Origin: Henriciella sp.
Lineage (GTDB): Bacteria > Pseudomonadota > Alphaproteobacteria > Caulobacterales > Hyphomonadaceae
Assembly (NCBI GenBank): GCA_021776655.1
Contig: JAJFFK010000031.1
Coordinates: 1-64,000 of the forward strand
Length of the DNA stretch: 64,000 nucleotides
Reading direction: 5' to 3'
The notes beneath the pieces were generated by a model that was not told the DNA's origin, ran no database searches, and was given only the letters and a program-made list of their open reading frames with translations. Each line of letters opens with the position of its first letter. The first letter of the stretch is position 1. Below, one piece after another: positions 41,005-45,948 of the stretch. The position numbers and the translations under genes were made by a program.

Positions 41005-43104
41005 CTACTCCGCCGCCACAGCGGTTTCAAGACCCTGTTTTTGCATCGAACACTCCGCCATTGTCCTGGACGCCCGCGCCACGGGGTTGGTCAGGTAAAA
41101 ATCGCCAATCGCCGCGCCGAATGGCCGCGCCGCATCGACCGATCCGGCCACCTCAATCGGCGCTTTCAGAGCGTCCACCCCGCTCGCACCCGGCGCAAAC
41201 CCAAGCCCGGAGAAAACAGCGTTCGCGTCGCGCAATTGGTCACGCAATGCATCCGCCGAATCGTAAGGCAGTGTCTTGGCCAACACATCCGACAGGGCCC
41301 GGAAAATCGCCCAGCCCTCACGCGCCTCGCCCTTGGGCTGTACCGCGCGATGGGTCATCTGCACCCGGCCCTCGGTATTGACATATGTCGCCGCCATCTC
41401 GGTATAGGCCGCGCTTGGCAGAATGATATCCGCCGCTGCCGCCCCGGCATCACCGTGCGAGCCAACATAGATCACTTTAGTATCGCCCAGTTTCGATAAG
41501 TCAGCCTCATCCGCGCCAAGCACAACCAGTGTCTCAAGATCACCAGCCAGCATCGACGCAGTATCAACCCCCGCCTCACCCGGCACGAAGCCAACATCCA
41601 GCGCGCCAACCCGGCCAGCCGCGCTGTGCAGCACGCCAAACCCGGCCCAATCCTCGGTAACCGCCTGAACCTCAAGCGCGTAATCATGCACGGCTTTCAG
41701 GATCGCCGCGCCATCATCGCGGCACAGCACGCTCTCGCCGACCACAATCATTGGCCGTTTGGCATTACGCAGGGCTTCAGCCATCTCGCTATCGCGCCCG
41801 AACAGACCATCGAGCGCACCGGGGTCATCGCCGAGATGCTCATAATCATAGGTCAGATCAACGGCCTCACCGATCAGGCCAACTTTCAAATCATTCCATA
41901 GCCAGGCCTTGCGGATACGGGCATTCCACACCGCTGCTTCCTTGCGCGGGTTGACCCCGATCAGCAGCAGCGCATCGGCCTCCTCGACACCCATCAGGGT
42001 CGGGTTGAGGAGATAACGCTCACGCACGCCGTCAGTGCCATATTGCGCCCCTGCCGGGCGACAATCGGTGTTCTGCACACCCAGCGCACGGGCAAGATCG
42101 AGCGCCGCTTTGGCTTGCTCAACCTCGATCAGATCACCCGCGATAAAGCCGATTTTGTCGGCGGGAGCGGACAGCGCGTCTTTGGCCGCCGCAAACGCTT
42201 CACCCCAATTGACCGGGGTGAGCTTGCCACCTTTTCGCACATAGGGCGTATCCAGGCGCTGGCGGGCGAGGCCATCCCAGATGAAGCGCGACTTGTCTGA
42301 TAGCCATTCCTCGTTCACTTCCTCATTGACCACCGGCATGATCCGCATCACCGCGTCGCCCTTGGCATCAACTCGGATCGCACTGCCCATCGCGTCCATG
42401 ATATCTATGCTCGCCGTTTTGCGTAGCTCCCAGGGCCGCGCATTATAGGCGTAAGGTTTCGAGGTCAGCGCCCCGACCGGGCAAAGGTCGATGACATTGC
42501 CGGACAGTTCCGAGGTCAGGCTTTGTTCGAGATAGGTCGTGATCTCAGCACCCTCACCGCGCGAAATCATCCCGATCTCTTCGACGCCAGCGACCTCAGC
42601 AGCGAAGCGCACACAGCGTGTACACTGAATACAGCGGGTCATGATCGTGGCGACCAGCGGGCCCATATTCTTGTCTTCGACCGCGCGCTTGTTTTCTGCA
42701 TAGCGGCTGGTTGAGCGGCCATAGGCGACGGCCTGATCCTGCAAGTCACATTCGCCGCCCTGATCACAGATCGGGCAATCAAGCGGGTGATTGATCAGCA
42801 GGAATTCCATCACGCCACTGCGAGCTTTTTCGACATAATTGCCATTGGTCAGGATGTTGGGCGGCGTGCCGTCCGGGTTCATCCGCATATCACCAACCGT
42901 CTGCGCACAAGACGCAATCGGTTTCGGCGCGCCCTGCCACTGAACCAGACACATCCGGCAATTACCCGCGACAGACAGGCGTTCATGATAACAGAAACGC
43001 GGAATTTCAGCGCCCGCTTCCTCACACGCCTGCATCAGGGTGTAACTGCGCGGCACCTCAATATCCTGGCCATCAATGTTGAGTTTGAAAAGATCGTCAG
43101 TCAT
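41005..43104 (-). CDS. nuoG: NADH-quinone oxidoreductase subunit G
   Basis: The large peripheral subunit of complex I carrying several Fe-S clusters. The 699-residue protein has an N-terminal 2Fe-2S ferredoxin domain (CYHERLSVAGNCRMCLV), the His-Cys cluster region (HPLDCPICDQGGECDLQD) and a 4Fe-4S pair (RCIQCTRCVRF...NVIDLCPVGALTSKPY). A molybdopterin-oxidoreductase-like domain, without cofactor, follows. It is preceded by two small extra genes that separate it from nuoF. Confidence 0.97.
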   Translation of the reverse strand: MTDDLFKLNIDGQDIEVPRSYTLMQACEEAGAEIPRFCYHERLSVAGNCRMCLVQWQGAPKPIASCAQTVGDMRMNPDGTPPNILTNGNYVEKARSGVMEFLLINHPLDCPICDQGGECDLQDQAVAYGRSTSRYAENKRAVEDKNMGPLVATIMTRCIQCTRCVRFAAEVAGVEEIGMISRGEGAEITTYLEQSLTSELSGNVIDLCPVGALTSKPYAYNARPWELRKTASIDIMDAMGSAIRVDAKGDAVMRIMPVVNEEVNEEWLSDKSRFIWDGLARQRLDTPYVRKGGKLTPVNWGEAFAAAKDALSAPADKIGFIAGDLIEVEQAKAALDLARALGVQNTDCRPAGAQYGTDGVRERYLLNPTLMGVEEADALLLIGVNPRKEAAVWNARIRKAWLWNDLKVGLIGEAVDLTYDYEHLGDDPGALDGLFGRDSEMAEALRNAKRPMIVVGESVLCRDDGAAILKAVHDYALEVQAVTEDWAGFGVLHSAAGRVGALDVGFVPGEAGVDTASMLAGDLETLVVLGADEADLSKLGDTKVIYVGSHGDAGAAAADIILPSAAYTEMAATYVNTEGRVQMTHRAVQPKGEAREGWAIFRALSDVLAKTLPYDSADALRDQLRDANAVFSGLGFAPGASGVDALKAPIEVAGSVDAARPFGAAIGDFYLTNPVARASRTMAECSMQKQGLETAVAAE

Positions 43105-43107
43105 GGA

Positions 43108-43482
43108 TCAGCTATCTTCCGCAAGGTTGAACGCCATCGGGCCGGGTTCGCGAATGAAGCCCCAGGTCGCGGTGCAAATGACAAGGGTCAGGAACAAGGG
43201 CAATGCATGCTCCATCGATTCCTGACGCGCCGCCATCGCCAAATAAGTCACGCAAGACAGAGCGCCGCAAAGGATACTGCCCCACAAGAGCTGCGCCCGG
43301 AACACGCCCCCATAAGCAAACAGGACCATGCCGCCAGTGGTGCAAAACAATGTCAGATAACAGACATCCATCGCTGTCTTGACCGCGAACAAAGGCGCCT
43401 CGTCGAGATAAAGCCCGAACATCAAATGCGCACCATACGCCATCAGCGCCGCGCACCAAAGAAGGGTTAGAATGGCTCTCAT
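43108..43482 (-). CDS. Uncharacterised membrane protein inside the nuo operon
   Basis: I do not recognise this 124-residue protein. It has about four hydrophobic helices (ILTLLWCAALMAYGAHLMFGL; YLTLFCTTGGMVLFAYGG; LLWGSILCGALSCVTYLAM; PLFLTLVICTATWGFI) with short loops. ATG 43482 is chosen over the track's 43677, which runs into nuoF; AAAGGG lies 8 bases upstream. It starts 2 bases after the 36-codon gene and ends 3 bases before nuoG, so it is fully embedded in the operon and should be made with complex I. It could be an accessory or assembly factor, or a passenger. Confidence 0.75.
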   Translation of the reverse strand: MRAILTLLWCAALMAYGAHLMFGLYLDEAPLFAVKTAMDVCYLTLFCTTGGMVLFAYGGVFRAQLLWGSILCGALSCVTYLAMAARQESMEHALPLFLTLVICTATWGFIREPGPMAFNLAEDS

Positions 43483-43484
43483 AA

Positions 43485-43595
43485 TCAACCCTTTCCAGAC
43501 CGCGATAACAAATGAACCAAAAAAACGACTATGAGAACGGGAATCGCCAGAACGATCAGAACCAATAGCAATTGAATTGGACCAACAGCTCCCAT
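43485..43595 (-). CDS. 36-residue single-helix membrane protein inside the nuo operon (small ORF)
   Basis: Not in the ORF track because of its length. ATG 43595 lies 5 bases after the nuoF stop with GGAG 8 bases upstream; the stop TGA is at 43485-43487, 2 bases before the next gene. The peptide begins MGAVGPIQLLLVLIVLAIPV and continues as one hydrophobic helix with a short basic tail (HLLSRSGKG). The start resembles the TatA-like N-terminal pattern (GPxQLLLVL), but there is no amphipathic helix. The tight packing between nuoF and the 124-residue gene, plus the ribosome binding site, argue for real translation. Function unknown. Confidence 0.65.
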   Translation of the reverse strand: MGAVGPIQLLLVLIVLAIPVLIVVFLVHLLSRSGKG

Positions 43596-43600
43596 AATCT

Positions 43601-44908
43601 TTACTCCGCTGCCACGACACCGCCCTGCACCAGCGCTCTTGGCGCTCGGTACTGGGTGATACGGTCTTCGATTTCAACTCGGAAATGGCGGATCAGGCCC
43701 TGTACAGGCCAGGCCGCCGCGTCGCCGAGCGCACAGATCGTGTGGCCCTCGATTTGATGCGAGACTTCAAGCAATTGGTCGATCTCGTCATGCTCGGCCT
43801 CGCCCTTGGCCATCCGGGTTAGCACGCGCCACATCCAGCCAGTGCCTTCACGGCACGGCGTACACTGGCCACAGCTTTCATGCTTGTAGAAATAGGCCAG
43901 CCGGGCAATCGCTGCGATCAGGTCGGTGGACTTGTCCATGACGATCACCGCCGCTGTGCCGAGACCGGATTTCAGGTCGCGCAACGTGTCAAAGTCCATA
44001 TAGGCGTCCATGATCTGCTCTGCTGGAACCATTGGCACTGATGAGCCGCCGGGGATCACCGCTTTAAGGTTCTCCCAACCGCCGCGAATGCCGCCGCAAT
44101 GCGTCTCGATCAGATCCTTGAACGTGATCGACATTTCTTCTTCGACATTGCACGGGGTGTTGACGTGACCAGAGATGCAAAACAGCTTTGTCCCGGTATT
44201 GTTCGGGCGGCCAAAACCGGCAAACCAACCCGCACCGCGCCGCAAAATGGTTGGCGCAACCGCAATAGACTCAACATTATTCACCGTGGTTGGCATACCA
44301 TAGAGGCCAGCATTGGCCGGGAATGGCGGCTTCAGGCGCGGCTGGCCTTTTTTGCCTTCAAGGCTTTCCAGAAGCGCGGTTTCCTCGCCGCAAATATACG
44401 CGCCAGCACCGTGATGGACGTAGAGCTCGAAATCCCAGCCATTCTTGTTGTTCTGTCCGATCAGTTTGGCTTCATAGGCCTCTTTGACCGCCTTTTCGAG
44501 CGCCTCGCGTTCAGCAATATATTCGCCGCGCAGATAGACATAGCATTTATGTGCCCGCATGGCGCGGCTGGCGACCATGCAGCCCTCAATCAACAAATGC
44601 GGATCGTGGCGCATGATCTCACGATCCTTACAAGTGCCGGGCTCGGACTCGTCGGCATTGACGACAAGATAATGCGGCCGGGTTTCACTGACCGTCTTGG
44701 GCATGAAGGTCCATTTCAGGCCGGTCGGGAAGCCCGCGCCGCCGCGCCCGCGCAGGCCGCTTTGCTTGATCTGATCGCAAATCCACTCTGGCCCCGCGCC
44801 CAGCATTTCACGCGTCAGGTGCCACGCCCCGCGCCGCTTTGCGTCCTCAAGATCCGGCGAATGAGCGCCGTAGAGATTGGTGAAAATGCGGTCTTTATCT
44901 TGCAGCAT
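43601..44908 (-). CDS. nuoF: NADH-quinone oxidoreductase subunit F
   Basis: The NADH-binding subunit of complex I with FMN and cluster N3. The 435-residue protein has the FMN/NADH motif [20 protein letters not shown] near residue 52, [19 protein letters not shown] near 173, and the 4Fe-4S motif [15 protein letters not shown] near 345. Its start shares a base with the nuoE stop. It is followed by the 36-codon gene and not directly by nuoG. Confidence 0.97.
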
Positions 44909-45948
44909 CAGTCTTCACCCTCGTCCTTCGAGGACTCAACCTCGCCTGCGTCAACGCGTTTGGAAAACGCCGTTTCCTCACCCGCCGCTAGTGTTTTGGC
45001 CTGCGCAATCCAGTCTTCTCGTTCGACCCGGCCCGGAAACGATAACTCATTTTCGACCCATGCAATATTGACCGGCGTCCAGGCAGCAACCTGGCTGAAC
45101 TTGTAGAAGCCGAGCGCATTCAGCGCCGTCTCGTTCACTGGCCCAATGCCCTTGATCCGCTTGAGATCGTCTTCCTCGCCCGCCGCAACTTTAAGCGCCT
45201 CTGGCTTTTCGCCCGTAGCTGCCGGTTTTGTCGTCTCGATCAAAGTTTTCTTGGCGGGTGCAGGCGTCTTGGGCTCAGCCGGAGCCGGCGCATCACTTGG
45301 CAGGTTTGGCAGTGTTTTGACCGCCTTGCTGCGCGACCCGTCATACAGCTCTGCTTCGACCAGCGACTTCGCGCCGCCCTCAGGTGCAGAGTTCAGCCGG
45401 TCAATAAATGTACCGGGCTTCACATCAGCGCCGTTCTGCAGTTTGGCAAGAATTTCAGTGAGGCTGTCTGGCGTCAGGTCTTCGTAATAATAGTCATTGA
45501 TCTGAACCATGGGCGCATTGACGCAAGCGCCCAGACACTCAACCTCTTCCCAGGATAGGCGGCCATCATCGGTGACGTGCATCTTCGGGCCGATCTTCGC
45601 CTCACAAACCGTCTTCAAATCATTCGCGCCGCGCAGCATGCATGGGGTCGTGCCACACAATTGAATGTGGTGTTTGCCAACTGGCTGGAGCCGGAACATC
45701 GTATAGAAGGTCGCCACTTCGTAGACGCGGATATATGGCATTTCAAGGCGATCCGCGACTTCGCGCATAGCCGGTTCGGACAGCCAACCGGCATTGTCCT
45801 TTTGCGCGAGCCATAGCAGCGGAATGACGCCAGACCGCTTCTTGTCGTCCGGGTATTTGGCCAGCCAGAACGCAATTGTCGGCTCGGTCTCCGGCAGAAA
45901 AGCAAAACTGTCGCCGCCCGCCTCAATATCAAATCTACGCAGCGCCAT
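44908..45948 (-). CDS. nuoE: NADH-quinone oxidoreductase subunit E with C-terminal extension
   Basis: Thioredoxin-like 2Fe-2S subunit (cluster N1a) of complex I. Residues 1-165 form the canonical domain, with cluster cysteines in [12 protein letters not shown] and [11 protein letters not shown]. At 346 residues it is about twice the E. coli length. The extra half is a Pro/Ala/Lys-rich linker followed by a helix-hairpin-helix-like domain ([19 protein letters not shown] ... WIAQAKTLA), as seen in many alphaproteobacterial NuoE proteins. The role of that domain is not established. Confidence 0.96.

Follow-up and report, generated by a model that had tools for sequence, protein, structure and literature searches.

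In the 64-kb window (the whole stretch of DNA analysed, 64,000 nt long), a 36-codon open reading frame (ORF) directly downstream of nuoF was identified which, with a rough probability of 0.55, represents a real, young, species-restricted (orphan) gene for a single-helix membrane microprotein. The ORF and the genes surrounding it are the following:

43595..43485, minus strand: 36-codon ORF, ATG start and TGA stop, predicted single-helix membrane peptide
43601..44908, minus strand: nuoF (NF010120 and TIGR01959)
43601..43609, minus strand: last codons of nuoF, GCG GAG TAA; the GGAG within them, 8 nt ahead of the peptide ATG, acts as ribosome-binding site and is also conserved in relatives that lack the peptide
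43482..43108, minus strand: ORF for a 124-aa four-helix membrane protein, the true downstream neighbour of the peptide
41005..43104, minus strand: nuoG (Fer4_NDSU1, NADH-G_4Fe-4S_3, Molybdopterin)

The 36-codon frame and its hydrophobicity

The peptide (36 aa, MGAVGPIQLLLVLIVLAIPVLIVVFLVHLLSRSGKG) starts with an ATG located 5 nt 3' of the nuoF TAA and preceded at 8 nt by GGAG, and its TGA falls 2 nt short of the ATG of the four-helix ORF. The first-pass annotation had described this start codon, the ribosome-site spacing and both gaps, all of which were confirmed on the minus strand; it had also taken nuoG for the next gene, whereas the 124-aa four-helix ORF comes first and nuoG only after it. 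Length within 15–70 codons, one hydrophobic helix and a start codon with a ribosome-binding sequence, the features by which microproteins are recognised, are all present in the ORF. No match above cut-off was obtained against Pfam and NCBIfam models, including those for CydX and other named small-protein families.

The helix is predicted at approximately residues 6–31. According to the positive-inside rule, the positively charged end of a membrane helix faces the cytoplasm. Since the N end of the peptide is without charges and its C end carries R/K/H, an N-out/C-in topology is predicted from the sequence.

Codon-usage and chance statistics were computed on the 64-kb window. The best 19-residue Kyte-Doolittle mean of the peptide was 3.59, a value reached in none of 20,000 dinucleotide shuffles (ORF body shuffled, start fixed), which bears out the strong hydrophobic helix noted in the first pass. 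In addition, this was the sole ORF of 25–60 aa in the window combining a Shine-Dalgarno (SD) sequence and an ATG or GTG start with a mean of 2.2 or more. Shuffling the window under a first-order Markov model gave an expectation of 0.15 such ORFs at this threshold and none at 3.0 or above. The hydrophobicity of the frame is thus far beyond chance.

The same shuffles bear on a quite improbable alternative, namely that the ORF is a non-functional by-product, either a T-rich insert left open by chance or a stranded fragment of a membrane-protein gene, perhaps translated and under no selection. T-rich DNA readily gives transmembrane frames (PMC7005711), 38% of the shuffles stayed open, with 28% of the open ones containing a helix-grade segment (mean of 1.6 or more), and the atypical codon usage and lack of conservation reported below also speak for this explanation. 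Against it stand the complete absence of the observed hydrophobicity among the shuffles, and the exactness with which the frame fills the gap between its neighbours, with spacers of 5 and 2 nt.

The ribosome-binding sequence is less informative than its spacing would suggest. GGAG is formed by the GCG-GAG (Ala-Glu) end of NuoF and was found in 46 of the 61 loci compared (window included), whichever gene follows; being encoded by the end of NuoF and kept regardless of the next gene, it provides no independent evidence for the peptide. In some relatives (e.g. locus L007) the same 8-nt GGAG spacing serves nuoG itself. With this spacing, a non-random hydrophobic frame and tight packing in the operon, the earlier proposal of an unannotated gene for a small membrane peptide is upheld.

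Absence of the frame from relatives and the extra block

Relatives of the peptide were sought in 29 genomes of the genus (window species included), 105 of the family and 385 sampled from the class. The other 28 genomes of the genus contained no match (best E 0.27), and nothing of note was found in the family (best E 0.03) or in the sampled class genomes (best E 0.014), where the best hits were in both cases a single helix inside a larger frame. Two weak class-level matches, in genomes G482 and G469, were rejected as they lie within frames of 416 and 114 aa; the stretch in G469 is a helix among multi-helix proteins, and no complex I gene was recognised in the 3 kb shown. Plasmids and phages gave no match to the peptide, and only weak matches were obtained in PHROGs (E 0.018), so that an origin from either was dismissed. 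A literature search for alphaproteobacterial ORFs already named at the nuoF-nuoG junction returned nothing useful.

Twenty-five other nuoF-nuoG spacers of the genus could be read, of which 10 were nearly empty and 15 contained a single four-helix gene only (~126 aa, starting 2–18 nt after nuoF and ending at nuoG). A short hydrophobic frame at the place of the peptide was present in none of the 25. The first-pass annotation had named the lack of a conserved reading frame at this position as the observation that would count against it, and such a frame is absent from 25 of 25 genus loci as well as from the family and class searches. For the four-helix gene of the window, a single clear orthologue was found, at locus L004 (genome G022; 45% identity, E 5e-28). 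There the gene starts 2 nt after nuoF and a 113-nt block is absent, the spacer measuring 383 nt compared to 496 nt in the window; the difference is one extra block, essentially the peptide gene. Within its four-helix gene, the L004 locus also has one GTG frame, which is unrelated and not hydrophobic.

NuoF is conserved at 87–93% in the genus and ~80–91% in the family, and the nearest NuoF to that of the window species is 93% identical. In the NuoF tree, the window species sits on a long, poorly supported branch without a close relative. Given this isolation, and given that the one match detected for the four-helix neighbour shares no more than 45% identity with it, the peptide could have an orthologue that has diverged or was not sampled, and what looks like a recent insertion could instead be an older gene that other lineages have lost.

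The block is bounded by a direct repeat and contains a related inverted segment:

43588..43599, minus strand: GATTATGGGAGC, first copy of the direct repeat, lying across the start codon of the peptide
43475..43486, minus strand: GATTATGAGAGC, second copy of the direct repeat, lying across the four-helix gene's start codon
43526..43538, minus strand: GUUCUCAUAGUCG, a segment of the peptide ORF with a predicted 13-bp pairing to UGAUUAUGAGAGC (43487-43475)

The two direct copies (12 nt, 11/12 identical) are spaced by exactly 113 nt. Among random SD-ATG pairs of the window, 0.24% show a repeat this good, a figure to be read with the repeat having been spotted post hoc. If the repeat is collapsed, the locus takes on an arrangement like that of L004, as expected had a sequence been inserted or duplicated there and left a short repeat behind. 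Altogether, positions 43475-43599 (minus strand) hold three related 12-mers, two direct ones over the start codons and one inverted inside the peptide frame (~43526-43538), and these may be a sign that the insert arose by template switching or duplication.

The block also stands apart in composition. Its GC3 was 0.405, compared to 0.64–0.75 in all thirteen neighbouring operon genes, membrane subunits included, and its standardised GC3 ranked among the lowest 0.5% when compared with 35-codon stretches taken from long ORFs of the window. The insert is T-rich (T fraction 0.41), a skew seen in 0.25% of 111-mers in the window. Codon usage of the peptide was unlike that of the host, with a log-likelihood resembling random synonymous choice, which weakens the case for long selection. 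Protein and DNA searches revealed no second copy of the peptide or insert in its own genome, ruling out a copy of another gene or mobile repeat of the same genome; taken with the atypical GC3, this makes it likely that the insert is foreign or young. Capture of the helix from another gene is possible, with no source found in the species' own genome. A displaced first helix of the four-helix gene was excluded, since relatives have four helices and no room upstream for a fifth.

Translation at the junction and the four-helix gene

Under the favoured explanation of a young orphan gene, a piece of ~113 nt would have entered the junction of nuoF and the four-helix gene in the lineage of the window species, leaving the 12-nt direct repeat across both start codons. 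The new 36-codon frame would have taken over the ribosome site and start context formerly used by the four-helix gene. We infer that ribosomes ending nuoF re-initiate immediately on the peptide start, 5 nt on, and that those ending the peptide meet the four-helix start 2 nt on, where the last codons of the peptide, GGAAAGGG, would provide the new ribosome site of the four-helix gene. Given the 2-nt stop-start gap and GGAAAGGG as a ribosome site, the three genes may be read as a coupled unit. The peptide itself would insert into the cytoplasmic membrane as a single helix, N-out/C-in. Its task could be that of a coupling element only, of a partner of the four-helix protein or of a partner of complex I.

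The predicted 13-bp RNA helix masks the peptide stop codon (UGA) together with the AUG of the next gene. Helices of such length were seen at 0.26% of ATGs in the window, while masking helices measured 4–10 bp at the other tested operon gene starts and 5–8 bp at four-helix starts in relatives. This unusual length, together with the stop-start distance of 2 nt, is in line with a leader or coupling ORF in which translation matters and the product does not: RNA of the peptide frame would mask the four-helix start, and translating ribosomes would open the helix. We regard this explanation as unlikely. The whole 181-nt junction fold was no more stable than shuffles (z -0.65), the local fold reached z -2.0 on a stretch picked afterwards, and 3–4% of synonymous recodings of the peptide yielded an equally long helix. 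Moreover, a leader would leave the extreme hydrophobicity unexplained, and Rfam contained no match for the junction RNA, by which a known RNA element was discarded. With the whole fold ordinary and 3–4% of recodings equal, coupling through RNA structure is only suggested by the folding model.

The four-helix protein had no match in Pfam, NCBIfam or PDB, and its structure prediction from three sequences was poor (pLDDT 57). By sequence, it seems to belong to a rapidly evolving family of Hyphomonadaceae genes linked to nuo, situated at the nuoF-nuoG junction and encoding proteins of 124–135 aa with 'WC' in helix 1, 'LW' after helix 2 and a C-terminal tail like FNPVKEF/INPAEEF. Relatives were found at loci L002, L003, L004, L009, L013, L017, L021, L024 and L026, and also at L029, L031, L032, L037, L040, L041, L043, L046 and L101. 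For a complex-I-linked accessory protein, the four-helix protein is a better candidate than the peptide.

Across Alphaproteobacteria (loci L033-L178), the nuoF-nuoG junction ranged from overlapping genes up to 2.8 kb, and the spacers held unrelated small membrane proteins, lipoprotein-like and other ORFs. The junction is an insertion hotspot inside the operon.

Two further observations concern nuo genes of this collection. NuoE of the window (44908-45948, minus strand) is 346 aa long and matches the 2Fe-2S thioredoxin-like family only at residues 28–171, approximately half of the protein being a C-terminal extension. The contig at L106 bears the name of a cyanobacterium, Pseudanabaena biceps; its nuoF is 78% identical to the alphaproteobacterial one of the window, and the record is probably contaminated.

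Comparison with known small membrane proteins

Bacterial intergenic transmembrane microproteins (ismORFs) are mostly hydrophobic and 15–70 codons long (PMC11188072, The Cryptic Bacterial Microproteome). The peptide shares their length range, intergenic location and hydrophobicity, and they form the best class for it, although ismORF families are defined by purifying selection across strains whereas the peptide is known from one genome, without orthologues.

Small subunits of respiratory complexes offer a second comparison. CydX of cytochrome bd oxidase (37 aa) resembles the peptide in length, in its one hydrophobic helix, in its location beside respiratory-complex genes and in being often unannotated (PMC4325964), but more than 300 CydX homologues are known with their partner (PMC4325964) as opposed to one genome for the peptide. 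NdhP and NdhQ of cyanobacterial NDH-1 are likewise one-helix proteins below 5 kDa, in a relative of complex I (PMC4131877). Unlike NdhP, which is needed for NDH-1L assembly, the peptide is missing from relatives that have complex I genes, and the PDB search gave no sequence match between NdhP/NdhQ and the peptide. These precedents, along with the position between nuoF and nuoG and the extreme hydrophobicity of the single helix, are what speaks for a role resembling that of NdhP/NdhQ or CydX, in which the peptide, encoded within the operon of its partner, would pack against the membrane arm as a small accessory subunit or assembly factor, the partner being complex I or else the adjacent four-helix protein. 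We consider such a role rather unlikely, as the peptide is absent in every relative despite the conservation of NuoF, and no solved complex I chain was matched: among PDB chains, only weak helix matches to Vpu fragments were obtained (E 0.15 or worse). In the 2.3 Å structure of complex I from the alphaproteobacterium Paracoccus, moreover, the extra subunits are only NDUFS4, NDUFS6, NDUFA12 and a PIMT (PMC11522691), and no single-helix accessory subunit of mitochondrial type is reported (PMC11522691). Conservation with the complex, the defining property of subunits such as CydX and NdhP/NdhQ, is lacking for the peptide in the genomes compared, and it is its position, and nothing besides, that suggests a complex I role. 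That the peptide is a functional, newly evolved single-helix subunit or regulator of complex I (or of the neighbouring four-helix protein), arisen from a short insert capturing the ribosome site and start-codon context at the end of nuoF, is very unlikely.

The first-pass annotation had linked the peptide to the single-helix accessory subunits of mitochondrial complex I, which are similarly hydrophobic with one transmembrane helix. That link is not supported: the mitochondrial subunits show no sequence match to the peptide, which is not conserved in the alphaproteobacterial genomes searched, and descent was rejected on the lack of conservation and of a PDB match. A recent species-specific addition is more likely than an ancestor of mitochondrial complex I subunits.

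For now, the young orphan gene favoured here belongs with the numerous orphan small ORFs already known. Should its product be made and be of use, the locus would offer a traceable case of a membrane microprotein joining a complex I operon, with one relative still showing what was presumably the earlier arrangement, in which nuoF is followed directly by the four-helix gene. In Hyphomonadaceae, small membrane-protein genes are gained and lost at the nuoF-nuoG junction.
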